This document shows positions 4,029 to 29,239 of a stretch of 64,000 nt of DNA, piece by piece. The first letter of the stretch is position 1. Every line of letters begins with the position of its first letter. Made by a program: the position numbers and the translations under genes. The notes beneath the pieces are model-generated. The model searched no databases, was not told the DNA's origin, and worked only from the letters and a program-made list of their open reading frames with translations. Source of the DNA: Clostridioides sp. ES-S-0010-02 (GTDB lineage Bacteria > Bacillota > Clostridia > Peptostreptococcales > Peptostreptococcaceae); NCBI GenBank assembly GCA_020641055.1, contig CP067345.1:3837317-3901316 (forward strand), read 5' to 3'.

Positions 4029-4215
4029 TACAAAAAAATTAAAATAGTGGCAACAATTGAGGATGTGAGGGAGAGTTGCCACTATCTATATAGGGTATTA
4101 TATTATGTTTTTAAGCTAGTTTTTACTATCTTCTATGTTTATATAATAACTCTTGTGTGTGAATTTAATAGAGAATTCATGTGAATATTATGTGAAGTTT
4201 TATTTTTATCAAGAT
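4029..4215 (+). repeat. Inverted-repeat element, copy A (mate at 29045-29239)
   Basis: From about 4040 to 4157 this sequence matches the reverse complement of 29113-29239 with about two substitutions and a one-base indel before it starts to diverge; weaker but clear similarity continues to about 4215. The core opens with a perfect 11-bp inverted repeat, ATAGTGGCAAC (4044-4054) and GTTGCCACTAT (4075-4085), with a 20-nt spacer. No open reading frame or T-run explains it. It lies just beyond the terminator of a penicillin-binding protein gene, as does its mate. Function is unknown. Confidence 0.85.
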
Positions 4216-4318
4216 AATATTTAGAATATAATTTAAACCTGTAATCATATTTCAAACAACAACTTTATCCATCAGGGAAATAAATTAATTCAATGTATTC
4301 TTATAAAATAATACACAA

Positions 4319-5704
4319 CTATATAAAGATAATATAAAATTCTATCTTTCCATCACAAATTTCAACCTTATATCTAAAATTATTTTCTTCAAGTATAGTC
4401 TTAACTATTGTAAGACCAAGACCAGTACCTGAAAGTTCTTTACTTCTTGACTTCTCTAAGACATAAAAAGGCTTCCATATATCATCAATATCATCTTCTC
4501 TATCATAATCTATTCCATTTTTTATAGATAAAATAATCTTATCCTTATCTCTAAAAAGATTAATCTCTATCTCATTATCACTAGTATACTTTATTGCATT
4601 ACTAATCAAATTATTAAGTACCATGTCTATACTATCTTTATCAGAATTTATTATAAGATTTTTATCTTCTATATCGCATTTAACACTTATATTATCCTTA
4701 GATATCAATAATTCATAATTTTTTAAATTCTTAAGCAGTCTTTCCTTTAAATCTACTTCACACAAACTAACTTCTTTTTTCTCATATTTAGCCCAATATA
4801 AAAGAGTATTTATTGTATTAGACATATTTTCTGCCTGTTCAATTATTGTATCTGTATAAGTACCATCATCCAAACCATCTTTCATACCTATAGCATATGC
4901 TTTTATAAGTGCTATTGGAGTTTTCATTTCATGAGATGCATCAGATATAAAAGATTTTAAATTTTCATTTCTTTTATTTAATTCATTGTGTGCCTTTTCA
5001 AGCTTCACACTCATTATATTTATGCTATAAGCTAACTCCTCTATTTCATCATTCGTTTTTATAGCCTCAGTTCTAAAATTTAACTCAGATATATCCTTCG
5101 ATAAAAGCTTTAACTTTTCCATAGGTCTTATAATTCTGTTTGACAGTATAAATGTAAGTATAGTTATTATAATTACTGAAAATATCCCCATTATTATATT
5201 AAATCTATTTACTATACCAATTGTTTCTTCTGAATGTTCTATTGGTATAGATATAGCAAATAAATAATTATCCTTTTTCATAAACTTTACTAGTAGACTA
5301 TATTTGGTTTTTCCCTGATTATATATTTTATTAATACTTTTATTGTCAATATCTTTTAAAACACTTCCTTCAATCCAAAATTTATTTAAGCTCAAACCTT
5401 TATTCCAAAAAGCGTCTAGCAAATCTTGATTTATTTTATCCATACTATTTTTATTTTTGTAATTTTTATCTAATGTTACATATACAATGGCTGTATTACT
5501 TTTTTCTTCAATTAATTCAATATTTGACTTTAATTTATTCATATCCTTATGTTTTATTTCATTTTCAATGTTGTTCAATACATTTCTTTTTTCATGTAAA
5601 TAATACCTATGAATAAACATACTATTTATAGCTATAGATATTATATAAACAACTACAACTACTATTGATATACTTATAGATAGCTTCTTATTTAGTTTAG
5701 TCAT
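4319..5704 (-). CDS. Sensor histidine kinase, two membrane segments with HAMP
   Basis: Membrane kinase of a two-component pair. Order: TM1 (about residues 9-30), an extracellular sensor segment of about 135 residues, TM2 (about 170-192), HAMP (PMEKLKLLSKDISELNFR), HisKA with the phosphorylated histidine in SHEMKTPIALIKA, and a HATPase_c domain with N-box NNLISNAIKY and GTGLGLTIVK. Its ATG at 5704 overlaps the regulator stop by 8 nt, so the two are translationally coupled; GGAGG lies 7 nt upstream, favouring ATG 5704 over the adjacent TTG. The signal is not evident from the sequence. Confidence 0.9.
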   Translation of the reverse strand: MTKLNKKLSISISIVVVVVYIISIAINSMFIHRYYLHEKRNVLNNIENEIKHKDMNKLKSNIELIEEKSNTAIVYVTLDKNYKNKNSMDKINQDLLDAFWNKGLSLNKFWIEGSVLKDIDNKSINKIYNQGKTKYSLLVKFMKKDNYLFAISIPIEHSEETIGIVNRFNIIMGIFSVIIITILTFILSNRIIRPMEKLKLLSKDISELNFRTEAIKTNDEIEELAYSINIMSVKLEKAHNELNKRNENLKSFISDASHEMKTPIALIKAYAIGMKDGLDDGTYTDTIIEQAENMSNTINTLLYWAKYEKKEVSLCEVDLKERLLKNLKNYELLISKDNISVKCDIEDKNLIINSDKDSIDMVLNNLISNAIKYTSDNEIEINLFRDKDKIILSIKNGIDYDREDDIDDIWKPFYVLEKSRSKELSGTGLGLTIVKTILEENNFRYKVEICDGKIEFYIIFI

Positions 5705-6344
5705 CAAAATCCTCCAGACTATACCCTAATCCTCTGTAAGTTTTTATTATATCTTCTCCTACTTTTGTTCTCAGTCTTCTTATATGAGTATCTACTGTTC
5801 TAAAATCTCCATCATAATCCAATCCCCAGACTAAATCTAAAAGTCTTTCCCTAGATAAAACTATTCCTTTATTATTTACTAAGCAATGTATTAATTCCAA
5901 TTCTTTTTTAGTCAATAGTAGTTCATCATTACCTTTAAAAACTTTATTTGACTCAAAATCTATTTTTAAATCTCTTATATTAATTGTATCTTTATAATTT
6001 ACCAATTTCTTAGCCCTTATTATTAAGACTCTAGGGTCAAATGGCTTTTTAACATATTCATCTGCACCTATATTGAGTGCCTCGATTTCATCTTCGCTTT
6101 GACTTTTAGCTGTCAACATAAGTACCTTTGTGTTACTATTTTCCTTTATCTCTTTACAAACCTCTATTCCATCAATTACTGGCATCATCCAATCCAGTAT
6201 TGCTAAATCTATTTTATTTTCATAAAAAACATCTAAAGCCTCTTCCCCATTTTTTGCAGTAAATACATTGAAGCCTTCTTTTTTAAAATAAGCACAAAGT
6301 ATCTTAATCATACTCACTTCATCATCAGCAATTAATACATTCAT
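5697..6344 (-). CDS. OmpR-family response regulator
   Basis: First gene of the pair. Receiver domain with acidic pocket D7-D8, phospho-acceptor D51 in AILDWMMP, and the conserved lysine in YVKKPFD. The C-terminal winged-helix DNA-binding domain ends in RTVDTHIRRLRTKVGEDIIKTYRGLGYSL, quoted here only as a family landmark between residues 178 and 210. The 215-residue length is typical. It probably regulates its own operon; no ABC or resistance gene is attached, so the target is not evident. Confidence 0.9.
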   Translation of the reverse strand: MNVLIADDEVSMIKILCAYFKKEGFNVFTAKNGEEALDVFYENKIDLAILDWMMPVIDGIEVCKEIKENSNTKVLMLTAKSQSEDEIEALNIGADEYVKKPFDPRVLIIRAKKLVNYKDTINIRDLKIDFESNKVFKGNDELLLTKKELELIHCLVNNKGIVLSRERLLDLVWGLDYDGDFRTVDTHIRRLRTKVGEDIIKTYRGLGYSLEDFDD

Positions 6345-6831
6345 ATATTCACATCCCTAAATTTATTATATTTCATATTATATCCATTGTTTCAATTATA
6401 TAAAATATATGTTACAAGAAGTTTACAATTATTACTAAATACCAATATAAAATAGAGTACAGATAAGCTTTAATACTAAATCTATAAATTTAAACACATA
6501 GTTAACTCTGCAAAATTTTTAAATATAATTGTTACTCTCTAAATATTAATATAAAGCAGAAACCTACAAAATAACTCTTCTATATAAAATTAATATTTTT
6601 ATCCAATCCCATAAGATTTTATACATAAATAAAAAAGTATCTCACCTATGATTTAAAAATCATTTTGAGATACCTTTTACAAAATTATATATTCTACACT
6701 ACTTATCTAAGCTTAAAACTTAAAGCTTAAATCTTAATCTATTAATAATCTAATTTACCCTAATTGCTATTGTATTTTATAGATATAGCCAATTTATCTA
6801 AAATCCTCATCAATACATCATATGCATTTAT
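6345..6831. other. Intergenic region, 487 bp
   Basis: AT-rich spacer between the start of the regulator and the end of the EIID gene. It holds the promoter region of the two-component pair at its left end and a hairpin terminator at 6631-6678. No further ORF, RNA or repeat is seen. Confidence 0.5.
6631..6678. terminator. Bidirectional hairpin terminator
   Basis: GTATCTCacctATGATT pairs with AATCATtttGAGATAC, flanked by A-runs on the left and T-runs on the right. It probably ends the PTS operon on the minus strand, about 150 bp beyond the last gene. Confidence 0.7.
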
Positions 6832-7671
6832 TTAAAATAATCCTAATATACCTGTAATAGCACCTACCACTATCAATATACCCATTATTTTTATTGGAGA
6901 AAGACCTTTCTTTAAAGCAAAGAGTACCAATAAAGTAAGTACCAAAGGAATTAACCCTGGAAATATCTTATCAAGTAAATCTGTCTGAAGACTAAATTTA
7001 AAATCTCCACTAGTATAACTTATTGGTGTAGATAAATTAATAAATCTACCTACTAGTCCGCCCATAACTAAAGTCCCTAGTATAGAAGCACCTTCTATAA
7101 CTTTATTTACTATTCCACCCTGAAGTATACTTTCAACAGCTTTTTTACCATACTTGTATCCATTTGTCCACATTCCAAATGAAATTGAAGTCATTATTAT
7201 ATATTGAGCCAATACAAATAATATCGGTCCTGCAATTGATGCTCCTCCCTCAGTTAAACCAATACAAACAGCTAATACTATAGGTGTTATAACTCCTTGA
7301 GTTAAAGTATCTCCAATACCTGCCAATGGTCCCATTAAACCTGTCTTTATGGCATTCATACCATCACCACTTATTTCATCTGCACCATTAGCTTTTTCTT
7401 CTTCCATAGCTATTGTTATTCCATGTATAACACATCCACATATAGGCTCTGTATTAAAAAATGCCAAGTGAGTTTCTACTTCTTGCTTTAACTCTTCTTT
7501 ATCTGGATATAACTTTTTAAGTACTGGTAACATTGAATGTGAAAATGCTGTTGATTGTAATCTTTCATAATTGTAGTTAGATTGTGCAAAGAAAAACCAT
7601 CTTAGCCATGACTTTATCACATCTTTTTTGCTTAACGTTTTCTTAGCTACTTCACTTTTTGTATCTGACAT
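6832..7671 (-). CDS. Mannose/fructose/sorbose-family PTS, IID component
   Basis: Membrane subunit of a group translocation system; with IIC it forms the sugar channel. The 279 residues, the N-terminal FFFAQSNYNYERLQS and HSMLPVLKKLYP segments, the central MGPLAGIGDTLTQG motif and several C-terminal hydrophobic helices are typical of EIID-Man. It is the last gene of a minus-strand operon (IIA-IIB-IIC-IID after the dehydrogenase), 24 nt after IIC, with its own AAAGGGG site. The sugar cannot be read from the sequence; the dehydrogenase partner suggests a hexose or polyol. Confidence 0.93.
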   Translation of the reverse strand: MSDTKSEVAKKTLSKKDVIKSWLRWFFFAQSNYNYERLQSTAFSHSMLPVLKKLYPDKEELKQEVETHLAFFNTEPICGCVIHGITIAMEEEKANGADEISGDGMNAIKTGLMGPLAGIGDTLTQGVITPIVLAVCIGLTEGGASIAGPILFVLAQYIIMTSISFGMWTNGYKYGKKAVESILQGGIVNKVIEGASILGTLVMGGLVGRFINLSTPISYTSGDFKFSLQTDLLDKIFPGLIPLVLTLLVLFALKKGLSPIKIMGILIVVGAITGILGLF

Positions 7672-7695
7672 AATTTTTTCCCCTTTCTTATATAT

Positions 7696-8454
7696 TTAAG
7701 ATGTCGCACCATCTTTTCCATATTTAATTGAAGTAATTGTAAGAGCAAGTATTACTCCAATAACAGATATTACTATTATATCTACTTTAAAATAAACAGC
7801 CATTAATATACCTAATATGAAAAATGGCATAGTAAACTTATTTCCAATTAATTTTAAGTTCATAGCAATTCCTAACGCTGGTAACATAGCTCCAATTACA
7901 TTGAATACATGTAACACATTATCATTCATTACTTCTAACATTCCATCTATTGCATTTGGCCCAAAATAAACAACTAATAATGCTGGTATAAAACTCATTA
8001 CAAACAATAGTATCTGAGGTGGAACTATATTTATAAATGCTACTTTATCTATATTTCCTTTTTGAACCTCTCTATCTGCCCAGTGTGCAAAAAAAGAATT
8101 GACTGTCATTTTACCTATCCAAAGTACAGTTGCAACAGTACCTAATGGAACAGCTATTGCCATTGCAGTACTTACATCCAAATTAGATGCTATAGCTAAA
8201 GCAGTCCCCACATATCCTGCAAAAGCTGGGTCTCCCATTTGAGCCCCTCCTGCTGATATGAATCCTAAATATATCATATTTATACCTGCACCTATAATTG
8301 CTCCTTGAACTGGGTCTCCTAGTATAATTCCTGTTACAAATCCAGCTAATAAAGGTCTATTCCATGTAAAAAATCCAACATAAGTTAGCCATGGACTCCA
8401 AGAAAGATAATAAAAAATTGCTATTAAAACTGCTTGAATTAGTGAAATTTGCAT
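7696..8454 (-). CDS. Mannose/fructose/sorbose-family PTS, IIC component
   Basis: A multi-pass membrane protein of 252 residues. The family-typical segments RPLLAGFVTGIILGDPVQG and GAQMGDPAFAGYVGTALA are present. It forms the translocation channel with IID. The start is supported by AAGGAGGAA 7 nt before the ATG, and the spacing to IIB (43 nt) and IID (24 nt) is operon-like. Confidence 0.93.
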   Translation of the reverse strand: MQISLIQAVLIAIFYYLSWSPWLTYVGFFTWNRPLLAGFVTGIILGDPVQGAIIGAGINMIYLGFISAGGAQMGDPAFAGYVGTALAIASNLDVSTAMAIAVPLGTVATVLWIGKMTVNSFFAHWADREVQKGNIDKVAFINIVPPQILLFVMSFIPALLVVYFGPNAIDGMLEVMNDNVLHVFNVIGAMLPALGIAMNLKLIGNKFTMPFFILGILMAVYFKVDIIVISVIGVILALTITSIKYGKDGATS

Positions 8455-8497
8455 GTTCTTCCTCCTTATTTAATTTTAAATATTTACAAAATAGGTC

Positions 8498-8971
8498 TTA
8501 CAACAATGTTCCTACATCAATTTTCTTTGCATCTGGAACTATTTGTATAAAACACTTAACATTCTTTGATATTAATTCCCTAAATATTTCTTTCTCTTCA
8601 TCTGATACTGATATATTCTTATAAAAACTTTTTCTTCCAAGACCAGCACCCATACCCCCAACATTTAATTCTTTTAAATCTACTCCATTATTTACTAGAC
8701 CTAAAACAGTTTTAGGATATTTAACTAATACTATTAAATTTTCATCTCCATCATATGATTTTAAAACTTCAGAACCTGATTCTATATCATGCACTTCAAC
8801 CTTAACAGTTGAAGGTGCTGCCATTTGTAATACTTGAACTATAAAAGGGTCTTTTACAACTAAATCATCTACTATTACTATCCTCTTTGCTGATGTAATC
8901 TTACACCAAGCAGTTATAACTTGCCCATGTATTAATCTATCATCAATTCTTGTTAATGCTATATTGCTCAT
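8498..8971 (-). CDS. Mannose/fructose/sorbose-family PTS, IIB component
   Basis: Cytoplasmic phosphocarrier of 157 residues. The family signature RIDDRLIHGQV includes the phosphorylated histidine H15, which receives phosphate from IIA and passes it to the sugar. The full fold length is present. GGAGG precedes the ATG. It is encoded separately from IIA, 28 nt downstream of it. Confidence 0.93.
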   Translation of the reverse strand: MSNIALTRIDDRLIHGQVITAWCKITSAKRIVIVDDLVVKDPFIVQVLQMAAPSTVKVEVHDIESGSEVLKSYDGDENLIVLVKYPKTVLGLVNNGVDLKELNVGGMGAGLGRKSFYKNISVSDEEKEIFRELISKNVKCFIQIVPDAKKIDVGTLL

Positions 8972-8999
8972 AATAATTCCTCCAAAATTTTAATTTATT

Positions 9000-9407
9000 T
9001 TATATATTTAAAGCTGCTTTTACATCTTTAATTCCTGAAACTCCAACTTCTTCACATAAATTTTTTAAATCTTTTAATTTCATAGTATCTCTGTTTAAAA
9101 ACAGCTCTAAAAGCATAGGCAAATTTACACCTGTTAAACATTCTAATTCACATTCCTTAGCAAATTTATTTATTATAACAGCAGATGTATTGAAAGGAGT
9201 TCCTCCATAAAAATCAAGTAATACTAAAATACCTTCATCTTTATATTTTTCAATTCCATTTTCTAATTTTCTACTAAACTCATCTATACTGTCACCATGG
9301 TTTAATCCTAAAGTTTCTACTTTTTCTTGTTTCCCTACTATTAATTCAGCACTTTCTAACATTGCTTTAGCCATATTCCCATGTGCAGCTATAATTATTC
9401 CTGCCAT
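9000..9407 (-). CDS. Mannose/fructose/sorbose-family PTS, IIA component
   Basis: Cytoplasmic phosphocarrier that accepts phosphate from HPr. MAGIIIAAHGN holds the active histidine H9, and LLDFYGGTPFNTSA is the usual second loop. An in-frame ATG at 9416 is only 1 nt from the GAGAGG site, whereas the ATG at 9407 is 10 nt away, so the protein probably starts MAGII and has 135 residues. It lies between the dehydrogenase gene and IIB in one operon. Confidence 0.92.
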   Translation of the reverse strand: MAGIIIAAHGNMAKAMLESAELIVGKQEKVETLGLNHGDSIDEFSRKLENGIEKYKDEGILVLLDFYGGTPFNTSAVIINKFAKECELECLTGVNLPMLLELFLNRDTMKLKDLKNLCEEVGVSGIKDVKAALNI

Positions 9408-9470
9408 ATGAATCATACCTCTCTTAACTTTTTTATATACATTATAAATTACTATCTTTATTGCTCTACC

Positions 9471-10523
9471 TTAATTAGCCACATTAATCATTATCTTACC
9501 AAAGAAAATGTCTCTTTTGTATATTTTTTCAAAATAATCTGGCACTTCATCTAAGTTTATTCTGTGTGTCACCAATTTCTCAACATTCATGTCACCTTTT
9601 TGCATATGATACAAGCCAGCACTCCATTCTTTTCCTGGAAATGGAAATGAATTTCCAAACCAAGTTCCTTTCACAGTTAGCTCACTTCTCACTATCTTCT
9701 CAAATTGTTCTCTGCTTAAAGCTACATCTCCATATGGTACTCCTGCATACAGTACTGTCCCACCTTTTTTGGCTAATAATAATACCTGACCACATGTCAT
9801 TGGAGTTCCTGCTGATTCAATAACAATGTCTGCTCCAGCTCCATTAGTTAATTTTTTTATCTCTTCTACAATATTTTTTTCTTTTGCATTTATACAAATA
9901 TCTGCTCCTAATTCCTTCGCTAATTCTAATTTCTCATCAAATACATCTATAGCCACTATTTTTGTAGAACCAAATATTTTTGCCCATTGTATTGAAAATA
10001 AGCCTATTGGCCCTGTTCCAAGTACTACAACAGTATCTCCTACCTTAGTTTCTGACCTAAAAAGTCCATGCCCTGCTATACACACTGGTTCTAAAGCAGC
10101 AGCCGTTTCATAACTTATTTCTTCTGGTATTTTTATCAAATTTCTTTCCTTTACCTTTGTATATTCAGCAAAACATCCTCCAAGCTCTTTATTGCCTATT
10201 ATTGCTACATTATTACATCTTGAATACAACCCTTTTTTACATTCATCACATTCAAAACATGGCATAGCTGGACAAACAGCAACTCTATCTCCTATTTTAA
10301 AATCTTTTACTTCTATACCAACTTCTGCTACTTCTCCTGAAAATTCATGTCCTAAGATTTCTCCCACCATATGAGGGCCTGTCTTTGAGTATTTTGATAT
10401 ATCAGAGCCACATATACCAGCAACTTTTACTTTAACTATTACATCATCTTTTTCTAATATTTTAGGTATATCTGCATTCTCTACTCTTGTATCTCTTACA
10501 CCATAGAACTTAACTGACTTCAC
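9471..10523 (-). CDS. Zinc-dependent medium-chain alcohol/polyol dehydrogenase
   Basis: NAD(P)-dependent oxidation of a secondary alcohol, probably of the sugar or sugar phosphate brought in by the downstream PTS. Catalytic zinc ligands are in CGSD (C38) and GHE (H59, E60); the structural zinc cysteines are in CPAMPCFECDECKKGLYSRC; the Rossmann motif is VVLGTGPIGL. The sequence resembles sorbitol dehydrogenase and galactitol-1-phosphate 5-dehydrogenase. AGAGGTGG lies 5 nt before GTG 10523; an upstream in-frame GTG at 10532 overlaps that site and is less likely. As the first gene after a sigma-54 promoter it sets the context: sugar uptake with immediate oxidation. The substrate is not determined. 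Confidence 0.9.
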   Translation of the reverse strand: MKSVKFYGVRDTRVENADIPKILEKDDVIVKVKVAGICGSDISKYSKTGPHMVGEILGHEFSGEVAEVGIEVKDFKIGDRVAVCPAMPCFECDECKKGLYSRCNNVAIIGNKELGGCFAEYTKVKERNLIKIPEEISYETAAALEPVCIAGHGLFRSETKVGDTVVVLGTGPIGLFSIQWAKIFGSTKIVAIDVFDEKLELAKELGADICINAKEKNIVEEIKKLTNGAGADIVIESAGTPMTCGQVLLLAKKGGTVLYAGVPYGDVALSREQFEKIVRSELTVKGTWFGNSFPFPGKEWSAGLYHMQKGDMNVEKLVTHRINLDEVPDYFEKIYKRDIFFGKIMINVAN

Positions 10524-10588
10524 ATTAACCACCTCTATTGTTTATTTTATTTAGATATATACTCATCTTTTTTATGTAAAATATATAG

Positions 10589-10604
10589 AGCAATTTTTAT
10601 GCCA
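10589..10604 (-). promoter_or_regulatory. Sigma-54 (-24/-12) promoter of the dehydrogenase-PTS operon
   Basis: On the minus strand the sequence is TGGCATAAAAATTGCT, an exact fit to TGGCAYR-N4-TTGCW, 65-80 nt upstream of the dehydrogenase start. A LevR-type sigma-54 activator is encoded at the left edge of the window. Confidence 0.88.
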
Positions 10605-10632
10605 ACATTTGTAAATATAGTTTTCATGCCAT

Positions 10633-10715
10633 TTATCACACTGTTATTATATGTGTGTCAAAGTGTGTCAAAAAATTTTCCTACAAAAACTTATGTGTGT
10701 TAATACAAATGACAC
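10633..10715. promoter_or_regulatory. Candidate upstream activator sites for the sigma-54 promoter
   Basis: GTGTGTCA occurs twice in direct repeat (10653-10660 and 10663-10670), with the inverted form TGACAC at 10710-10715 and a related ATCACAC at 10634-10640. They lie 30-125 bp upstream of the -24/-12 element, where an enhancer-binding protein would sit. Confidence 0.5.
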
Positions 10716-10920
10716 TCACTTTCTTTCTGAGTACTTTTCTAAATTTTTTCATAAAATGTACTTTTTTTATTATTTTTATAAAAATGTTCGGAAAAATTCT
10801 CTATTTTTGTGATATAATATTAAATATAAGGCATCAATATAGATTTTTATACGAATACCAGAACTTTTTTGACACTAATGCCTTATTCAATATAATAATT
10901 TAATATTTTGGAGGTTGTTT

Positions 10921-11601
10921 ATGAAAAAAGTGTATCAAGGAAAGACTAAAGATGTTTTTGAATTAGATAATGGAAATTTCTTACTTAAATTTAAGGATGA
11001 TGTAACTGGCAAAGATGGTGTATTCGATCCAGGTGAAAATACTGTAGGGCTAAGCATAGATGGAATTGGTAAGGCTAATTTAGAAACATCTGTTAAGTTC
11101 TTTGAAATTCTAAACAATGCTGGAATTAAAACTCATTATGTAAGTGCTAATTTAGAAGATGCAACTATGGAAGTGTTACCAGCAAAAGTTTTTGGTAATG
11201 GATTAGAAGTTATTTGTCGTTATAGAGCTGTTGGTAGTTTCTTACGTCGTTATGGTTCATGTGTTGAAGAAGGAGCTAAGTTAGACTGTTATGTAGAAGC
11301 AACTTTAAAAGATGATGACCGTTGTGACCCACTTATAACATCTGAAGGTTTAGAAGCTTTAAATATTATGACTCAAGCTCAATTTGATTCAATGAAGAGT
11401 ATGACTCAAAAAATTTCTAACATAGTTCGTGATACTATAGCTGAAAAAGGACTTGAACTTTATGATATTAAGTTTGAATTTGGATTCTACAATAATGAAG
11501 TAATATTAATAGATGAGATAGCATCTGGAAATATGCGTGTTTATAAAGATGGTGTAATAGTTGACCCTATGGATTTAACTGCTTTATTATTAGCAAAATA
11601 A
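10921..11601 (+). CDS. purC: SAICAR synthetase-like protein (PurC family)
   Basis: Phosphoribosylaminoimidazole-succinocarboxamide synthase ligates aspartate to CAIR in purine synthesis. The family landmarks are [11 protein letters not shown] at the N-terminus (nucleotide loop), [17 protein letters not shown], and [14 protein letters not shown] near the C-terminus; 226 residues is normal for a single-domain bacterial PurC. TGGAGGT lies 5 nt before ATG 10921, which is preferred over the upstream TTG 10915. No other purine gene is adjacent, so this is an orphan, possibly a second copy or one with an altered substrate. Its use of CGT arginine codons differs from the AGA-rich neighbours, which hints at high expression or transfer. 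Confidence 0.85.
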
Positions 11602-11662
11602 TTATACAGAATATATACATATAATTTTCAAATACAAATCTAATAAACTTATAAATAAAAAC

Positions 11663-11738
11663 AAGCTATGAATCAGAAATTCTATAAAATATCAATTACT
11701 TTAAAACATTTTATAATTTCTAATTTCATAGCTTTTTT
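11663..11738 (+). terminator. Long hairpin terminator after purC
   Basis: AAGCTATGAA at 11663-11672 pairs with TTCATAGCTT ending in a T-run at 11732-11737, with inner pairing between AAATTCTATAAAAT and ATTTTATAATTT. A partial second copy of the right arm follows near 11753-11782. Confidence 0.7.
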
Positions 11739-11871
11739 ATTGTATTATTACAACATTTTATAATTTCTAACTTTATAGCATCTTTTATTCTGCCGATGCA
11801 CTTAATTCCTATAAATTAGCTTCTATATTCTATAACTATCACCTCCTACTATTTATCCTAATTCATACTTA

Positions 11872-12192
11872 TTAGTTACTAGATAATAATTTCAATCCTA
11901 CAATCCCCACTACAATAAGACCTATACATAAAATTCTAGCCATATTAACTGGTTCATTTAAAAGAGCAATTCCTACAATAGCAGTTCCAACTGTACCAAT
12001 TCCAGTCCATATGGCATATGACGTTCCAAGCGGAAGATGTTTAAGCGCCAATGATAAAAAATAAAAACTAACAATCATCCCAACAACAGTAAGTATACTT
12101 GGAGTCAACTTAGAAAATCCATGTGAATTTTTTAATTGAAATGCCCAAAAAACTTCAAATAGTCCTGCAATAAATAAAAATAACCATTTCAT
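11872..12192 (-). CDS. gdx: Guanidinium exporter, small multidrug resistance family
   Basis: A four-helix SMR protein that exports guanidinium in exchange for protons as an antiparallel dimer. All the residues that define the Gdx subtype are present: E13, W16, S42, Y59 and W62. The length of 106 residues is standard. GAGGG stands 9 nt before the ATG at 12192; the upstream ATG at 12213 overlaps that site and is rejected. A guanidine-I riboswitch lies in its leader, which confirms the substrate class independently of the protein. Confidence 0.93.
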
Positions 12193-12241
12193 ATAAATCA
12201 TCCCTCTTTTCAAATAATATATCTCTTTTTTAGCAATAAAA

Positions 12242-12372
12242 TAACCTGAGAAATATTATAAAATATCTCCCAGGTTTTTATCCTTCCGTGTTCACAACAA
12301 AATTATGTTGTGGGTTTTATCTTGGACCAGACCAATCATTAATAATTGCGGAACCCTATAAAACTCTAGTAT
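12242..12372 (-). promoter_or_regulatory. Guanidine-I (ykkC) riboswitch with terminator expression platform
   Basis: Read on the minus strand, the conserved blocks appear in order: AGGGTTCCGC (12357-12348), CTGGTCC (12330-12324), ACACGGAAGGATAAAA (ending near 12277) and CCTGGGAGA. The last block is also the 5' arm of a hairpin, AACCTGGGAGATATT pairing with AATATTTCTCAGGTT (12276-12243), followed by ATTTTATT. Guanidine binding should sequester that arm and let transcription continue into gdx. Confidence 0.93.
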
Positions 12373-12587
12373 TATTTTATTGTCTTTAAAATAATACTAG
12401 CAACATAGGTAAAAAAAGTCAATATATTGATATGATATAAATTATAAGAGTATAAATTAAAATATATATCTATAGTAATTTGTACTCTTTGGTTATATAA
12501 CATATTCAACTTACATATTTTGTATTTATATCTAATTTTTATTTAATATGTTATAATAACATAAAAATATCGAAAGGAGTAATTTTT

Positions 12588-13415: not shown

Positions 13416-13423
13416 AAAATTAT

Positions 13424-19988: not shown

Positions 19989-19990
19989 TA

Positions 19991-22465: not shown

Positions 22466-22554
22466 TAATAATAAATTAATATCTATAAATAAAACATAAT
22501 AAGTTATCTTTTTAAAACTATAATCCTATAGATTTTTTGATTATATATCTTTAT

Positions 22555-22597
22555 GACCACAAATATTGCTATCGCCTTTATTTATGGTCTTTTTTTA
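22555..22597 (+). terminator. Terminator after the ABC operon
   Basis: GACCACAAATA pairs with TTTATGGTC and is followed by seven T. From 22598 to 22819 nothing further is seen. Confidence 0.7.
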
Positions 22598-22819
22598 TGT
22601 TTTCATTTGGTGTATATTTACATATACTCTCGTATCTTGATATATTTTATGGTTTAAAAGTAGTAAATTAGCAAAAATAGTATATAAGTTTAATACAATT
22701 TGTAAAATCAAACGATTTTGAGAAAAATCACATTAATTGACTTTTAAATACACAGTTATCTATTTCTTTTGATTTTCTACAGTATGTCAGCTAGATTTAA
22801 TTTGCCTAATTTAAAGTAT

Positions 22820-23335
22820 TTATTCATCTATAAGATTATATTTCTTTATACATCTAACATAATTTGCTACTAAATAATAATTATTTATATCATCTTCATC
22901 TAATCCTTTAAATGCAGTTATTTCATCAGCAAGTTCACTACTACCTTCCACAAAAACACAACCTGTTTCAAATTCCATACCTACAACAATAGAACAACCA
23001 CTATAAACTTCTTCTTGATTTTCATATAAAGTCTTTGCTTTTCCTTCATTTTGAATTGTAAATACAATAGGTTTTAATTCTTTATTGCTCGGTATCTTTT
23101 TTGAAAAAGGTTTGTTTAACTTAATATTATTAATGACTACATTTTTAAATTCTTCCGAAGCTTCTTCTTTTAGTGTATACTTTTGTTTCAAATATTCTAC
23201 TAATTCCAAAATAGACTTAGCATTTACATTTAAAGTACTTCTATATTTTTCATATACAGCTTTCCATTCTCTAACTTTTTGTTGTGATACTTCCTGTGTA
23301 TCTATATTTATTTTTCCTTCTGGCATTTTTTTCAT
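22820..23335 (-). CDS. Uncharacterised 171-residue protein
   Basis: I do not recognise a family. GGAG lies 7 nt before the ATG, and codon use matches the neighbours, so it looks real. The protein is soluble and charged: a basic helical N-terminal half (KVREWKAVYEKYRSTLNV, LVEYLKQKY) and a C-terminal half with GCSIVVGMEFETGCVFVEG and an acidic tail. No signal peptide or membrane segment is present. It is monocistronic. Confidence 0.7.
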   Translation of the reverse strand: MKKMPEGKINIDTQEVSQQKVREWKAVYEKYRSTLNVNAKSILELVEYLKQKYTLKEEASEEFKNVVINNIKLNKPFSKKIPSNKELKPIVFTIQNEGKAKTLYENQEEVYSGCSIVVGMEFETGCVFVEGSSELADEITAFKGLDEDDINNYYLVANYVRCIKKYNLIDE

Positions 23336-23707
23336 ATAAAATCTCCATCCAATCTTTATGTAATCTTATTAATACATTTCATTATAAAAACATTGATTTA
23401 TTAATTTTAATATTTACATCGTACTTCTAAAAACTTTACAAGTCAATGTAATTTTGCTATCTTTGGTTTATAACAGTTTAGAATTAATTTCTTTTATAAT
23501 GGTAATAGATTAATATTATTTCTGGAGGGCATATTTATGTTTTTAAATAGAATTGAACTTTTCAAAGGATATTCTTTATATAAGTTATTAATTAATAAAC
23601 ATGACATTATGTTGTCATGTTTATTGTGCTATTATGTTTTTAAAATTCTTTTGCTTTACAATTACTTTTTATAGTATTTAAGGCTTAAAATTAAGGAGCT
23701 TAAACAT
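23336..23707. other. Intergenic region with a possible leader ORF
   Basis: Apart from the candidate 45-codon ORF and hairpin at 23537-23674, this stretch shows only AT-rich spacer and, at its right end, the AAGGAG site of the next gene. Confidence 0.4.
23537..23674 (+). CDS. Possible 45-residue small protein or leader peptide
   Basis: ATG 23537 follows a strong GGAGGG by 8 nt and opens 45 codons starting MFLNRIELFKGYS, ending in a hydrophobic tail with YYVFKILLLYNYF. A perfect 13-bp inverted repeat, AATAAACATGACA (23594-23606) and its complement (23613-23625), lies inside it, which is more like an RNA structure than a gene. It could be a leader peptide, a small membrane peptide or a gene remnant. 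It was identified only from the ribosome binding site and the open frame. Confidence 0.25.
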   Translation: MFLNRIELFKGYSLYKLLINKHDIMLSCLLCYYVFKILLLYNYFL

Positions 23708-24331
23708 ATGAAGATAAATATAAAATCAACTTTAAATGAATTTATTAAAAATAATAATCTTTTTGAGGATAATGAAGTCTTATCATATCTTCCCAATATA
23801 ACAATAGATACAGACTCTATAAAAACTATAATGATTAACGAAGTTGTACCAAGTAATCCTAATGATGATTTTTATAGTTTAGATGAGCATGCTGACTACT
23901 TAAAAAATACAATCCCTTTATTCCAAAATGCAGGTATAAAAGTATCTAGCATAAACGATATCTTAAATCTAGGCATATATATAACAAATGCAGTAAAATT
24001 ACCTAAATCAGAATATACAATAACTCGCGACACTATTCAATCGCACATGCCTATTTTAGAAGAAGAAATTAAATTATTCAGTAATCTAAAGGTAATAATG
24101 TTAATGGGAGATGTAGCAAAAAAATCTTTTAATATGATTACTAAAAAACATACAAAAAAGAATGCAGTTCCTTCTATTTCAACATACAAACTTCGTAATA
24201 ATGAACTTTATTATGACAATTTACGAATATTCCCATCATATATTATGACTGGTGGAAACTTATTGATTGAAAAATCAAAATTCGAAATGGCCTCAGAAGA
24301 TATTCAAAAAATGATAGAACTTATAAAATAA
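23708..24331 (+). CDS. Uracil-DNA glycosylase superfamily-like protein
   Basis: A 207-residue soluble protein. TIMINEVVPSNPNDDFY resembles the first motif (water-activating loop) of UDG-superfamily enzymes, VIMLMGDVAKKSF the central strand, and FPSYIMTGGNLL sits where the second motif (HPS-like) is expected. The canonical histidine is replaced by phenylalanine in FPS, so glycosylase activity is uncertain. Homologues in clostridia are generally annotated only as UDG-like. It is monocistronic, with a hairpin on each side. Confidence 0.65.
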   Translation: MKINIKSTLNEFIKNNNLFEDNEVLSYLPNITIDTDSIKTIMINEVVPSNPNDDFYSLDEHADYLKNTIPLFQNAGIKVSSINDILNLGIYITNAVKLPKSEYTITRDTIQSHMPILEEEIKLFSNLKVIMLMGDVAKKSFNMITKKHTKKNAVPSISTYKLRNNELYYDNLRIFPSYIMTGGNLLIEKSKFEMASEDIQKMIELIK

Positions 24332-24338
24332 TAGAAAA

Positions 24339-24372
24339 GTGCCTCATAAAAACGCTTTGAGGCACTCTACTT
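24339..24372. terminator. Terminator between convergent genes
   Basis: GTGCCTCA pairs with TGAGGCAC around TAAAAACGCTT. It lies just after the UDG-like gene. Confidence 0.75.
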
Positions 24373-24486
24373 TTCAAATCATAAGTTATAATTATAGTAC
24401 TTTTTTTATAGTAAATTTAAATTTTTATTTAATATTATTTATCACTAACCTTTAATATTGTCCATCATTGAACAAATCAAACATAT

Positions 24487-25266
24487 CTATTTATCTAAAA
24501 ATATATCCTTTACTGTAACATCTGGATGGTGATACTTCTTTCTATCTGTCAAAAACGATTTTTTTATATTAATAGCCTCTTTTGGACACCAATGAAAACA
24601 GGCTAAACATCTTTCACACTCATTACCCCACTTTGGTTTTCTGTCAACTATACTTATGTTTTCTAATGGACAAACTCTTTTGCATGTTCCGCACCCATTA
24701 CAATTATCTTCTGCAAAAAATTTAGTGGTGGCAATCTGCATGTTTTTACCTACTAGACGAAGTACAACACTATCTATATGTGACTTTAAATTGTTTTTTC
24801 CCTCTATATTTCCAAATTCCAAGTTATTGATACATTTTGCAACTTCAGCTACTCTATTAGTTTGACTTCTCAATCTTTCCTCTTCAACATCTGGAGGTGT
24901 TATCAAAGCATTTCCAGGCATATTAATTAAAAAACCAGCAGATAATTTTTTACCCTTTTTCTTAAGTAATTTATCTATAGTAAATAAACTGTGTCCAGCC
25001 ACCCCATTGCAAGTGGCAATAGCATATATATGAGTATTACTATTAAAATTTAACTTATCTATAAAAAACTTTACTATATCAGGAACATCAGCGAAATAAA
25101 CTGGAAAAACAATTATCAATATATCTTCATTTACGTCTATATGTCTTTCTTTTCTATGTATAGCTAAAGGTATTACTTCCCCATTTTCATTTAACATTTC
25201 TTTTAAAGTCTTTGAAACCACTAAAGAGTTTCCTGTTCCAGAAAAATAATAAATCTTAGAACTCAT
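24487..25266 (-). CDS. EFR1-type flavodoxin/ferredoxin fusion protein (copy 2)
   Basis: N-terminal flavodoxin-like domain with FSGTGNSLVVSKT as phosphate loop, and two C-terminal 4Fe-4S motifs, CNGCGTCKRVC and CERCLACFHWC. The domain order and the CxHWCPKEAI end match the paralogue at 13.5 kb. It is the last of three minus-strand genes with a MarR regulator and a flavodoxin-family reductase, so it probably belongs to the same redox response. Electron partner unknown. Confidence 0.82.
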   Translation of the reverse strand: MSSKIYYFSGTGNSLVVSKTLKEMLNENGEVIPLAIHRKERHIDVNEDILIIVFPVYFADVPDIVKFFIDKLNFNSNTHIYAIATCNGVAGHSLFTIDKLLKKKGKKLSAGFLINMPGNALITPPDVEEERLRSQTNRVAEVAKCINNLEFGNIEGKNNLKSHIDSVVLRLVGKNMQIATTKFFAEDNCNGCGTCKRVCPLENISIVDRKPKWGNECERCLACFHWCPKEAINIKKSFLTDRKKYHHPDVTVKDIFLDK

Positions 25267-25335
25267 CCCTATCCCTCTTTCTATTGTTTTGTATCATCAA
25301 TGAGTTAAAAAGACTTCTTAAAACATAGTTTATAC

Positions 25336-25761
25336 TTATTTACTGAGTTTATCTAAAGCTTCAGTAAATAAAGACAGCTCCTCATCTGAAATAGTTTTAA
25401 ATGTCTCTGTTGCATATATATCTGCAATTTTATTTAATGGCTCTTCTAATTCTCTGCCTACATCTGTTAAAAATATTTGAAATTTTCGTCTATCTTTAAC
25501 ATCTACTTTACGAACAATCAAGCCTTTATTTTTCATAACATCTAAAATTCTTGTTGTATTAGATTTATCCTTACATGATTTTTCGCACAAATCTATTTGA
25601 GAAATTCCATCTTGTTCCCATAGAAATCTTAATAAAGCATAATGATCAGTTGTTATATCATACCCATTTTGCTTAAACATCTTTTTTAAATCTTCTTTTA
25701 CTTTCAATGAAGTACTTATTAACTTACTTGTAACTTCATATAATTTCTCAAAATCTCTCAT
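25336..25761 (-). CDS. MarR-family transcriptional regulator
   Basis: A 141-residue winged-helix protein. The recognition region DLCEKSCKDKSNTTRILDVMKNKGLIVRKVD and the DRRKFQIFLTD wing are typical of MarR. ATG 25761, just after GGAGGT, is preferred; a longer frame begins at 25797 inside the upstream gene. It lies between a flavoprotein gene and an EFR1 gene and probably controls all three from the operator at 26471-26498. Confidence 0.88.
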   Translation of the reverse strand: MRDFEKLYEVTSKLISTSLKVKEDLKKMFKQNGYDITTDHYALLRFLWEQDGISQIDLCEKSCKDKSNTTRILDVMKNKGLIVRKVDVKDRRKFQIFLTDVGRELEEPLNKIADIYATETFKTISDEELSLFTEALDKLSK

Positions 25762-25772
25762 AATACCTCCAT

Positions 25773-26450
25773 CTAAATAATACCTTGCGCCTCCCATCTA
25801 TCAATTATTCCTTTATATTGCTCAATATTTTTAAATGCCATTGGCTTTAAAATAATATTCATAGCAATAAAGTCGTAGATTTGAGAAAACACAGGTGGAT
25901 TTTTCTTTTCCTCTATACAATAAACAAATTTTTTAGATACCTTTTGTATCTTTGATTCTACTCTTTCAACTATAGGATTTTGATTAAATCCAACCTTTAC
26001 AGATAAATGACCACAAACATAACCTCCTGAATCTAAAACCATTGATTTCATAAAAGAAATAGCTTTTGAACCACGAGCATTTTCATATGTTGTAACTGCT
26101 ATACATGGTTTATGATACAATAATCGCTCTAACATCATATGAGCTCTATCTGTAAACACCTTAAAAAGACCAGTTACACTACTTCCATAAGTTGGACTAC
26201 CAAATATAACGCCATCACTCTTAGTAATTATATCATGAATATACTCTACTTTATCATTTTGATTAATACACTTACCTATTTTATAACAATTTAAACAACC
26301 AATGCAATATGATGGATTGACTTCACTTAGATTAAAAAAATTGATTTTGACATTTGGTTTAATTTTTTTTATATCTTTGCATAACTGAGTCAAAACCTTT
26401 GATGTTGCCCCATTTTTTCTAGGGCTTCCATTTATAACTGTAATTATCAT
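25773..26450 (-). CDS. NAD(P)H-dependent FMN reductase/flavodoxin family protein
   Basis: A 225-residue cytoplasmic flavoprotein. ITVINGSPRKNGATSK is the FMN phosphate-binding loop of the iron-sulfur flavoprotein/NADPH-FMN reductase family; SPTYGSSVTG and the CIGCLNCYKIGKC cysteine cluster are also visible, the last suggesting a compact iron-sulfur or metal site as in Isf. It is the first gene of the operon and precedes the MarR gene by 11 nt. Substrate unknown; quinone or drug reduction is possible. Confidence 0.85.
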   Translation of the reverse strand: MIITVINGSPRKNGATSKVLTQLCKDIKKIKPNVKINFFNLSEVNPSYCIGCLNCYKIGKCINQNDKVEYIHDIITKSDGVIFGSPTYGSSVTGLFKVFTDRAHMMLERLLYHKPCIAVTTYENARGSKAISFMKSMVLDSGGYVCGHLSVKVGFNQNPIVERVESKIQKVSKKFVYCIEEKKNPPVFSQIYDFIAMNIILKPMAFKNIEQYKGIIDRWEAQGII

Positions 26451-26470
26451 AATTTATACCTCCATTTTAG

Positions 26471-26498
26471 TTGTTATATCAACAATAAGTATATCAAC
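26471..26498 (-). promoter_or_regulatory. Candidate MarR operator
   Basis: TATATCAAC occurs twice (26475-26483 and 26490-26498) 15 bp apart, and TTGTTatatcAACAA at 26471-26485 is a perfect short palindrome. They lie 20-50 nt upstream of the flavoprotein start. Confidence 0.5.
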
Positions 26499-26646
26499 CA
26501 TTTTTTCAACTGTCAATATAATCCTTATATTTAATTTTTTACCATACATACAGATTAATTAGTCATAGATATACAGCTTAATTAATACTATTTATATTTA
26601 AATACATGTACTTTCTAGATGACTAAAAATGAACTATTTAAAAAAA

Positions 26647-26694
26647 TTGACAAAGCAAACTAATGATAATATACTTTATATATTACAAATGTAA
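26647..26694 (+). promoter_or_regulatory. blaI promoter with BlaI operator
   Basis: TTGACA (26647-26652) and TATACT (26670-26675) are 17 bp apart. The dyad TTACAAATGTAA (26683-26694) lies just downstream of the -10 and matches the TTAC-N4-GTAA motif found before the PBP2a-like and beta-lactamase genes. Binding there would give autorepression. Confidence 0.85.
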
Positions 26695-26711
26695 GTATAA
26701 GGAGGTATCTT

Positions 26712-27098
26712 ATGAAAAAACTACCACAGATTTCAGAAGCAGAATATCAAGTAATGAAAATCATCTGGAAATATGCTCCTATTAGTACGAATGAAGTGAT
26801 TGAAAAGCTAGTAAAAACAAGTAAGTGGAGTCCTAAGACTATTCAGACAATGTTGTTGCGTTTGGTTAAAAAGGGAGCTTTGGCATATGAAAAAAATAGC
26901 AGAGTCTTTGTTTATACTCCAATTGTTAAAGAAGAAGAGTATGTATCTACAGAAAGTAGTTCTTTTTTAAATCGCTTTTATAATGGAACACTTAATTCTA
27001 TGGTACTAAATTTTTTAGAGAATGATAAATTATCAGAAGATGATATAGAAGAATTAAGACATATTTTAGATAAAAGGAAAACTAAGGAGGATAAGTAA
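26712..27098 (+). CDS. blaI: BlaI/MecI-family repressor
   Basis: A 128-residue winged-helix dimeric repressor. ISEAEYQVMKIIWKYAPIS, WSPKTIQTMLLRLVKKGAL and the SSFLNRFYNGTLNSM dimerisation region are hallmarks of the family. In the family, activated BlaR1 triggers cleavage of BlaI in the dimerisation region, frequently at an Asn-Phe bond; here an LNF sequence occurs at VLNFLEND, close to where that bond is expected. AAGGAGG lies 7 nt before the ATG. It overlaps functionally with blaR1, which starts 2 nt after its stop. Confidence 0.93.
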   Translation: MKKLPQISEAEYQVMKIIWKYAPISTNEVIEKLVKTSKWSPKTIQTMLLRLVKKGALAYEKNSRVFVYTPIVKEEEYVSTESSSFLNRFYNGTLNSMVLNFLENDKLSEDDIEELRHILDKRKTKEDK

Positions 27099-27100
27099 GT

Positions 27101-28903
27101 ATGTATGCTCCATTTTTTATTCGATTCTTGCTTAGCACAATAACCTTATCTTTTTTAATTATTATAATTTTGCTTGCTAAAAAAATATTAAAAAAACATA
27201 TTTCTGCAATGTATCAATACAATATCGGGTTTATGATACTTATAATGTTAATAATCCCATTTATTCCGCTTAAATATATTAATCATTTAAATATATTTAG
27301 CTATATATCTAGTTTTACTCAGATTGAAAATAATACAGCAAATACTTCTATTGTAAAAAACTCTTCAGACAGTATAATTAATAATTCAAATGCATTAAAA
27401 GATTTTTCAGTATCTTTGAGTCAATCTAATTTCGATAATTTAAATATTTTATTGCTAACATTATGGATAATTGGAATTACAACCATGATAATTATTACAG
27501 TTCATTGTAATTTTAAAATAGGAAATATAAAAAAATCAGTACAAATTTTAGAAGATGAAGAGATACTTTCACTTTTTAAGCACTGTAAAGAAAATATAGG
27601 TTTAGATAAGAATTTTATACTATGTAAATCATCTATTATAAATACACCTATTACATTTGGATACTTTAGGCCACATATTATATTACCAAGCGAATCTATA
27701 TCTAAATTATCTTTAAAAGACATAAGATATATTTTACTTCATGAATTACAACACTCTAAAAACAAAGATATTTTAGTAAATTATCTAATGTGTTTTTTCC
27801 AAATATTATATTGGTTTAATCCTCTTATCTGGTATGCACTTAAAGAAATGAGATTAGACCGTGAGATTGCATGTGATATTTCAGTTTTAAAAAGACTTGA
27901 TGAGAATAGCTACATAGAATATGGACATACCATAATAAATTTTATAGACAATCTATCAAAGCCATCTAATCTCACACTTACTTCAGATATTGGTGGTTCA
28001 AAAAAGCAAATAAAAAGACGTATATTAAAGATAACAGATTTCCAAATTGAGTCAAAAGCTTTAAAACTTAAAAGTATTTTAATTTTTACAATAATAGCTT
28101 TAATTGTATTTGGAAGTAGCCCTACACTATCCATTATGGCAGATGTCAATGAAAAATATAATATTACAAGTAATCAAACTTTATATGAAGATTTAAGTCA
28201 GTATTTCAAGGGTTTTGATGGAAGTTTTGTAATGTATGATTTAGAGTCAAATCAGTATCATATTTATAATGAAGAAAAAAGTAAAACGAGAATTTCACCA
28301 GACTCCACTTATAAAATTTATAGTGCTTTGTTGGGATTAGAAAATGGTGTGATAACAAGAGATAATTCATACATTCATTGGGATGGGAAGTATTCTACTA
28401 ATGATTCTTGGAACAAAGACCATGACTTATTTTCTGCTATGGAAAACTCCGTTAACTGGTATTTTCAAGATTTAGACAAAAAAAATGGTATGAAGAAAGT
28501 ACAAACTTATCTAAAAAAAATTAACTATGGAAATTGTGATGTTTCATCTGGGATATCAAACTATTGGTTAGAATCTTCTTTGAAAATCTCACCTATTGAA
28601 CAGGTAAATTTACTTAAAGATTTTTATACAAATAAATTTGAATTTAAAGATGACAATATAAAAACTGTAAAAGATTCATTATTGATATCTAAAGAAGCTG
28701 GAGTATCGCTTTATGGAAAAACTGGTACTGCTAATATAAATGGAAAAGATGTAAATGGTTGGTTTATAGGCTATGTAGAAAAAAATGGAAATACTTATTT
28801 ATTTGCAACAAACATTCAAAGTAAAGATTATTCTAATGGTATCACAGCATCCAAAATAACATTGTCTATTTTAAATGATAAAAAAATATATAAGACAAAT
28901 TAA
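27101..28903 (+). CDS. blaR1: BlaR1-family beta-lactam sensor and metalloprotease
   Basis: Membrane signal transducer of 600 residues. The N-terminal half has about four TM segments and an M56 zinc protease domain with HELQH at residues 214-218 and the downstream DREIACD. A last TM near 325-345 leads to an extracellular penicillin-binding sensor with S402-T-Y-K405, YGNCD and K540-T-G. The sensor is closest to class D beta-lactamases, including the one at 44.1 kb: both share YGNCD and WLESSLKISP. Acylation of S402 by a beta-lactam should activate the protease and relieve BlaI repression. Confidence 0.93.
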   Translation: MYAPFFIRFLLSTITLSFLIIIILLAKKILKKHISAMYQYNIGFMILIMLIIPFIPLKYINHLNIFSYISSFTQIENNTANTSIVKNSSDSIINNSNALKDFSVSLSQSNFDNLNILLLTLWIIGITTMIIITVHCNFKIGNIKKSVQILEDEEILSLFKHCKENIGLDKNFILCKSSIINTPITFGYFRPHIILPSESISKLSLKDIRYILLHELQHSKNKDILVNYLMCFFQILYWFNPLIWYALKEMRLDREIACDISVLKRLDENSYIEYGHTIINFIDNLSKPSNLTLTSDIGGSKKQIKRRILKITDFQIESKALKLKSILIFTIIALIVFGSSPTLSIMADVNEKYNITSNQTLYEDLSQYFKGFDGSFVMYDLESNQYHIYNEEKSKTRISPDSTYKIYSALLGLENGVITRDNSYIHWDGKYSTNDSWNKDHDLFSAMENSVNWYFQDLDKKNGMKKVQTYLKKINYGNCDVSSGISNYWLESSLKISPIEQVNLLKDFYTNKFEFKDDNIKTVKDSLLISKEAGVSLYGKTGTANINGKDVNGWFIGYVEKNGNTYLFATNIQSKDYSNGITASKITLSILNDKKIYKTN

Positions 28904-28919
28904 TGCAAATATACTTTTA

Positions 28920-28953
28920 AAATTACAATAAAAAAATTTGATGGTTGTAATTT
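28920..28953 (+). terminator. Terminator after blaR1
   Basis: AAATTACAA pairs with TTGTAATTT across a 16-nt A/T-rich loop, followed by GTTT. The T-run is weak. Confidence 0.5.
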
Positions 28954-29044
28954 GTTTACACATATCTATATAAATACTCTAAATATGGGATTTTATTTAT
29001 AAATAGTTTAAATATTTATGTAAGTTTTTATTTATTTACATAAA

Positions 29045-29239
29045 ACCTAATACTTTTTCTTTAAGATTTAAAAACTTCATACAATATTCAAATTAATTCT
29101 CTATAAAATTCATATACAAGGTTTATTATATAAACATAGAAGATAGTAAAACTAGCTTAAAAACATAATATAATACCCTATACAAATAGTGGCAACTCTC
29201 CCTCACATCCTCAATTGTTGCCACTATTTTATTTTTTGA
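29045..29239 (-). repeat. Inverted-repeat element, copy B (mate at 4029-4215)
   Basis: Reverse complement of copy A. The 11-bp inverted repeat is at 29186-29196 and 29217-29227, with the same 20-nt spacer sequence in opposite orientation. The near-identical core runs to about 29113 and diverged similarity to about 29045. On the other side, similarity reaches the terminator and the region up to the stop codon of the PBP2a-like gene. Relative to its own neighbouring gene it points the same way as copy A does. Confidence 0.85.

Follow-up and report, generated by a model that had tools for sequence, protein, structure and literature searches.

Two inverted repeat units of a Clostridioides genome as probable members of a six-copy small RNA family with a candidate two-component regulator

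Bacteria of several groups contain small RNAs (sRNAs) that resemble those considered here. The csRNAs of Streptococcus, under the control of CiaR, occur as 2-6 siblings per species, with five in S. pneumoniae (PMC4211561). LhrC1-5 of Listeria, under LisR, are five highly alike sRNAs that are induced by a two-component system (TCS) (PMC5880928). In C. difficile, the sRNA SpoY binds G-rich motifs that resemble ribosome-binding sites (PMC10267692). The present work concerns a 64,000-nt stretch of Clostridioides sp. ES-S-0010-02 (the window; contig CP067345.1, positions 3,837,317 to 3,901,316), in which two inverted units, copies A and B, lie at the 3' ends of two genes for penicillin-binding proteins (PBPs). 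These units are probably two of six paralogous sRNA genes in the genome (G000), all apparently switched by one signalling system.

Two C. difficile sRNAs, each described singly, are the closest relatives in print. RCd6 (CD630_n00170) lies in the intergenic region at blaR (CD0470), has the promoter TATATA-17 bp-TTAAAT, and gives a Northern band of ~100 nt that is 12-fold higher in exponential phase (PMC3649979). It is reported to be Hfq-associated and to be repressed in infected mice (PMC11651100). SQ1498, located in C. difficile 630 between CD2112 (hypothetical) and CD2113 (a sensor kinase), has the -10 sequence TATAAA and gives a 150-nt band, high in exponential phase (10-fold) (PMC3649979). 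Over- or antisense expression left the predicted targets without detectable effect, and regulation of both RNAs was said in 2013 to remain to be determined (PMC3649979). In the excerpt of that paper the two appear as separate sRNAs, with no kinship, operator or regulator given (PMC3649979), and no cited passage ties one to the other.

Copies, operator and hairpin

The two units of the window are arranged as follows.

About 4032-4196, minus strand: copy A unit, the BLAST partner of copy B
About 29076-29237, plus strand: copy B unit, inverted relative to copy A; ~160 bp each

BLAST aligns A with B at E 8.2e-61 and 93% identity over query positions 10-165, bearing out the near-identical inverted pair of a preliminary description (cores 4040-4157 and 29113-29239). 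From the operator through the hairpin, there are 12 differences in 159 alignment columns. The copies are more numerous than this pair: by BLAST the copy A core matches 5 places in the whole genome (4.26 Mb), copies A-E, and a sixth, the kinase-linked or TCS-linked copy, is detected by a covariance model. The position of A and B as 3' flanks of PBP genes is incidental, since 4/6 copies of the genome lie elsewhere. The genome positions of the other BLAST copies are:

1377610-1377714: copy C, between a threonine-aldolase-like gene and dapF (gene names by eye)
3235486 and 3236036: copies D and E, 550 bp apart, around an open reading frame (ORF) of 73 amino acids (aa)

All copies have the same order of parts: four 11-bp direct repeats, promoter, hairpin and terminator. 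This order is read on the strand opposite to the one first described, so that the likely transcripts do not point away from the neighbouring genes, as had been thought; they run toward the stop codons of the carboxypeptidase and PBP genes.

4153..4196, minus strand: copy A operator, TTCACATAATA TTCACATGAAT TCTCTATTAAA TTCACACACAA; score 35.8 with an 11-mer position weight matrix (PWM)
29076..29119, plus strand: copy B operator, TTCATACAATA TTCAAATTAAT TCTCTATAAAA TTCATATACAA; PWM score 35.4
4140..4168, minus strand: copy A promoter, -35 TTAAAT (4163-4168), 17-bp spacer, -10 TATATA (4140-4145)
29104..29132, plus strand: copy B promoter, -35 TAAAAT (29104-29109), 17-bp spacer, -10 TATATA (29127-29132)
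4032..4133, minus strand: copy A predicted sRNA, about 102 nt, hairpin 4044-4085, 3' end TTTTAATTTTTTT; start placed from the -10 spacing
29139..29237, plus strand: copy B predicted sRNA, about 99 nt, hairpin 29184-29229; start predicted

The 4x11-bp repeats, with a consensus of about TTCAYATAAAA, are present at all six copies. Across own copies A-E, identity at lags of 11, 22 and 33 is matched by 0/5000 shuffles, and the best PWM score in the window outside A and B is 12.8. A four-repeat pattern, allowing up to 3 mismatches, has 5 matches in the 4.26-Mb genome (A, C, D, E and the sixth copy) and 0 in the control; copy B, with more than 3 mismatches, is missed although its PWM score is 35.4. 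Since the pattern is derived from these copies, a differently built site could escape it. A two-repeat version is uninformative (41 matches versus 52 in the control). When the PWM is trained only on Clostridioides copies A-E and X (an extra copy, below), its top site lies directly upstream of the RNA in 23/24 other loci (20 distant and 4 TCS-linked) and its second-best site does so in the remaining 1/24. By its sequence, the promoter of each unit is sigma-A-like, and the hexamers and spacing of copy A are those published for RCd6.

The presumed transcribed strand folds better than shuffled sequence (z-scores of -4.5 for A and -4.0 for B, with 0/200 shuffles as good in each), and the opposite strand of A has a z-score of -2.1 (5/200 as good). 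The 11-bp inverted repeat with a 20-nt spacer noted earlier is found in copy A as perfect arms (4044-4054/4075-4085); it is not identical in length in both copies, as the arms of copy B are 13 bp (29184-29196/29217-29229). Similarity of the flanks near the two stop codons is also present and consists mainly of a terminator-like hairpin after each gene (by eye). In A and B a T-run follows the hairpin immediately, and C, D and E have a separate terminator hairpin and T-run (by eye). The predicted kinase-linked RNA is 151 nt in G004. The hairpin loop, CUCCCUCACAUCCUC, is CU-rich, 14-15 nt long and near-constant in most copies while the stem varies; exceptions, with a variable loop, are G003, the TCS-linked Clostridioides copies and part of the g14 copies.

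Changes within the stem are compensatory. In 10 distinct hairpins of the genus, hand-picked with the loop N-padded so that the stems align (likewise alignment A7, 9 rows), all 13 pairs are formed in every row and 6/13 are changed on both sides; two rows (A_G005, Bx_G005) had been dropped from the set behind these picks. In a second set of 28 rows (27 distinct), taken from 20 loci outside the genus and from the TCS-linked copy of each of the 8 Clostridioides, with no A-E, 13/13 pairs are changed on both sides, with 100 such cells versus 27.5 in shuffles, and 97.6% of cells are paired (0/500 shuffles). This alignment (A9) was fitted to covariance model R1, which favours the structure of R1. MAFFT alignments A1, A3, A5 and A6, with strands or the 3' stem misplaced, were not used for counts. 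The covariation, and the recurrence of one operator-promoter-hairpin arrangement at six loci, support the function at the RNA level that the preliminary description had suspected. In Rfam the copy A core passes no threshold (best 15.9 bits versus a cut-off of 110); the only match in the window is Guanidine-I, elsewhere.

The RNA family is restricted almost entirely to relatives of this genome. Model R1, with an E limit of 0.05, finds it in 36/71 genomes of the window's family (f1, which we take to be Peptostreptococcaceae); this threshold is the author's choice and counts G064, at 0.6, as absent. The family of RNAs spans 13 genera. Across the order (297 genomes) all 33 genomes that match with E no greater than 0.01 belong to f1, and across the class (391 genomes) 4 match, one of them outside f1 (G374, E 0.0026). 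The G374 match is without the loop and was rejected as a chance match. The pattern TTGAGGATGTNAGGGAGNGTT occurs in 8/71 family genomes, all of the same genus, with 39 matches (one G005 copy, split over two contigs, is counted twice); a scan of the genome_contigs collection gives 21 stretches, 18 from Clostridioides. Within that genus, positions A-E are each occupied in 8/8 genomes, and the TCS-linked position likewise in 8/8.

An additional A/B-type copy, X, is present at G006:C76:10550 (L083), near a contig end, only in G006 of the eight.

The constancy of these positions bears on what the repeats are. A mobile palindromic element, such as a miniature inverted-repeat transposable element (MITE) or an IS200/IS605-type end, copied into six sites would explain several dispersed intergenic copies with a hairpin core, as well as the additional copy in G006. 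Such an origin is highly improbable, given that the same six positions are occupied in 8/8 species genomes apart from X, that the stem changes are compensatory with loop and promoter kept, and that the copy A core has no phage or plasmid match. A MITE or IS200-IS605 element, whose insertion sites would vary between relatives, was rejected as a candidate.

The genes that flank A and B, and a riboswitch between them, are:

2705..3949, plus strand: D-Ala-D-Ala carboxypeptidase (PF00768), convergent with the copy A RNA
12265-12370, minus strand: Guanidine-I riboswitch, 95.2 bits
27101..28903, plus strand: blaR1-like sensor, upstream neighbour of copy B; NCBIfam NF000326, 774 bits versus a cut-off of 400
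29332..31482, minus strand: MecA_N-domain transpeptidase, PBP2a/PBP4(5)-like, under those curated cut-offs; convergent with the copy B RNA

The inverted orientation of A and B had raised the idea that recombination between them flips the 25-kb segment, and their near-identity in G004 (1/159) and G009 (2/159) would suit a recombination site. However, in the 7/8 genomes that are readable the segment is not inverted: no A or B locus joins the carboxypeptidase with blaR, blaI or the PBP, as would be seen after an inversion, and PBP, copy B and blaR lie on one contig in 5 genomes (G000, G004, G006 with a partial PBP, G007 and G008). The four copies outside the pair also have all features in common with A and B, and a role in inversion is therefore very doubtful. 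The eighth genome, G005, can be counted for the idea insofar as its draft contigs break inside the element, which leaves the orientation there unreadable.

The contigs concerned are C9, C12 and C13; their ends within the two copies are what assembly would give when nearly identical repeats exceed the assembler word in length.

Recent gene conversion, also proposed, is not seen in this genome, where A and B have 12/159 differences; between this genome and its relative G008, the same copies differ at 2 columns (A) and 3 columns (B). Within other genomes A and B differ at 1 (G004), 2 (G009), 8 (G006), 11 (G008) and 11 (G010) columns, which suggests occasional conversion in G004 and G009 only. Four rows cut by contig ends (A_G005, A_G007, Bx_G005, By_G005) were dropped from this comparison.

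Two of the six copies very probably or probably correspond to RNAs already in print. Copy B adjoins blaR, its predicted RNA is 99 nt, and its -10 and spacing equal those of RCd6, with a -35 of TAAAAT versus TTAAAT; it is very probably the RCd6 locus, as judged from neighbours, promoter and predicted size. By the same kinds of evidence, the kinase-linked copy is probably SQ1498: the gene order kinase, RNA, hypothetical gene is found in 8/8 Clostridioides; in G000 and G008 an insert separates the first two. Transcription is known, from print, only for these two, by way of their probable published counterparts. Two members were very probably known singly, and the family, the operator and the link to a regulator are apparently new within the open-licence literature searched.

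The linked two-component regulator

Outside Clostridioides, the RNA lies directly after a pair of genes for a response regulator (RR) and a histidine kinase (HK), on the same strand, in 13/20 loci (the 20 come from 19 genomes), and the RR is 79-89% identical. A copA-like gene precedes the pair where reading reached that far (L158, L178, L189); in L158 the gene, read by eye from the ORFs, is presumably copA. In Clostridioides the orthologous RR is 99-100% identical in 8/8 genomes, and the sixth RNA copy lies 3' of the pair in 8/8. The candidate RR gene of this genome is G000:C1:2024433-2025098, which adjoins a copA-like gene. The inserts between kinase and sRNA are L189:5893-8424 in G000, a cassette that we take by eye to be ABC-transporter-like, and L198:4204-5873 in G008, a 306-codon frame; in both of these genomes the loop of the sixth sRNA is degenerate. 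The other 7 loci are without RR/HK linkage; L165 and L176, the two of them that were read, lie beside a gene that we assume, from its ORF, to be polA, and at L162 the RNA is close to a gene whose product is related to the neighbouring protein of copy E.

That neighbour of copy E is a 326-aa protein (L007:4366-5346) with no Pfam match; its relative at the g8 copy in L162 is 38% identical.

The RR and the RNA also co-occur. Among the 71 family genomes, 36 have both, 17 have the RR ortholog only, 0 have the RNA only and 18 have neither (Fisher p 1.5e-7, uncorrected for phylogeny), the RR being scored as present at E up to 1e-90, again the author's choice. In G052, one of the 36 RNA-bearing genomes, the RR frame is interrupted. 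From linkage and co-occurrence together, the RR is predicted to bind the operator, and a dedicated TCS over the six-member sRNA family is probable.

It is unlikely that the same sRNA family answers to a different OmpR-type regulator, with the adjacent TCS linked only by locus ancestry. The genome does contain 34 other Trans_reg_C genes above the curated cut-off, six g10 and g13 loci that were read have no RR/HK within 7.5 kb, and the RR gene of this genome is without an operator of the four-repeat pattern. Yet the RR is retained in all 36 RNA-bearing genomes though 18/71 family genomes lack it, both RR-less genomes of g8 (one 84% complete) are also RNA-less, and G040 in g13 is without both.

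The TCS that adjoins copy A (4319-6344) was considered as the regulator and rejected: it has no match of at least 50% identity at the A loci of G004, G008 and G010, where the inner flank was read.

In G018, one RR-only locus (L250) has two operator-like sites: the first follows the kinase, and the second is directed away from the RR gene. The second, L250:4429-4472 on the plus strand, is a four-repeat site with a score of 18.7, divergent from the RR gene; TATAAT and AAGGAG come next, which may mean that the same regulator acts on a protein gene there.

Proposed mechanism and its weighing

The scheme that follows builds on what is read directly from sequence, namely the copies, the operator repeats, the hairpin covariation, and the linkage and co-occurrence of the regulator; regulator binding, the sign of control, the pairing mechanism and the targets are what we infer. 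A phosphorylated OmpR-family RR, most likely the product of G000:C1:2024433-2025098, would switch the RNA on by binding the four tandem 11-bp repeats, which extend from about -63 to about -20 in a weak sigma-A promoter. With a length of ~100 nt in A and B and of ~150 nt in the kinase-linked case, the RNA would begin with an A-rich single-stranded 5' part, continue with a hairpin that has the CU-rich loop, and end in a U-tract or a separate terminator. Most likely, the loop would pair, probably with Hfq, to G-rich ribosome-binding regions of mRNAs and alter their translation. Pairing with specific mRNAs is proposed by analogy to LhrC and the csRNAs, because both searches for targets, one with the loop complement in the genome and one with 41 ribosome-binding sites, are negative.

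Overall, we give a probability of roughly four in five to the reading that the six copies are a sibling sRNA family under two-component control that works like the streptococcal csRNAs or Listeria LhrC. Several observations weigh against it. On the side of the regulator, 17/53 RR-bearing genomes are without detectable RNA; of their RR loci 10/17 were read, and operator-like sites were seen in only one of these 10 (L250); across the 12 loci examined, no match to the RNA model goes below E 0.78. Operators are weaker (10.8-15.4) at the TCS-linked copies of G004, G005, G007 and G010, and in this genome the sixth copy has a degenerate loop and is split from the kinase by the insert. In a scan of 30/38 own Trans_reg_C loci no site exceeds 17.4, versus 28-36 for the sRNA operators of the genus, and, as said, the four-repeat pattern is not matched in front of the RR gene itself. 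The identities with RCd6 and SQ1498 are drawn from neighbours, promoter and size, and the -35 of copy B is one base off that published for RCd6. On the side of the targets, a search for the 15-nt complement of the loop, allowing 3 mismatches at most, gives 69 places in the genome, including 5 own copies (64 non-self), versus 59 in the control. Against 41 ribosome-binding sites of window genes, hand-picked from the ORF list, the loop pairs at -7.76 kcal/mol versus -7.62 for shuffled loops, of which 119/300 are as strong.

Within this set, the leader of the RR gene 5697-6344 contains GGGATGTGA at the ribosome-binding site (window 6344-6370), which is complementary to the loop (duplex -14.3 kcal/mol). 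This gene is the second-best of the 41, and the whole set is not above shuffled loops.

The lack of enriched complementary sites in both searches, along with a 14-15-nt loop that most distant copies keep near-invariant on a freely varying stem, would also suit an RNA that works mainly as a protein sponge, with the constant loop as binding site, rather than by pairing with mRNAs. We regard this as rather unlikely: the sibling sRNA LhrC4 pairs with a Shine-Dalgarno region by its CU-rich loop (PMC5880928), and RCd6 is reported to be Hfq-associated (PMC11651100). For the preferred family of sibling sRNAs under a TCS, a more far-reaching version can be put forward tentatively, at somewhat less than even odds. 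In it, the six sRNA promoters would be the only strong DNA targets of the TCS in the C. difficile genome, its output would be wholly post-transcriptional through one constant loop, and a single RR-kinase-sRNA cassette beside copA, ancestral in the bacterial family, would have been multiplied to six in Clostridioides.

Significance and comparison with known systems

This work places two orphan sRNAs of an important gut pathogen, RCd6 and SQ1498, in one six-member family and names a candidate regulator and operator for them, so that the question of their control, open since 2013, is now directly testable. The five remaining siblings may help to explain why over- or underexpressing one RNA had no effect in 2013. 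A family of RNAs across 13 genera, matched by no Rfam model, is added. The common loop also means that reads and probes may cross-map between siblings.

Of the systems compared, SpoY is derived from a 5'UTR and has its start site in common with CDIF630_00827 (PMC10267692). The csRNAs belong to other bacteria, and the comparison with them is limited to Rfam, in which no family matches the core here. The CiaR repeat, which we take to be TTTAAG-N5-TTTAAG, differs from the four TTCAYATAAAA repeats. Approximate map positions weigh against SpoY being copy D or copy E. As proposed here, the csRNAs are several sibling sRNAs under one TCS, with distal and tandem copies (PMC4211561). In LhrC, a CU-rich loop pairs with a Shine-Dalgarno region (PMC5880928), and the loop here is also CU-rich. 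It differs in being a fixed string of 14-15 nt, and for LhrC, too, the comparison of the core is the Rfam search, which gave no match. In its architecture, the family described here would be of the csRNA/LhrC type: several homologous sRNA genes are present in one genome (5 by BLAST and the sixth by covariance model), and each promoter has a common operator to which the RR would bind.

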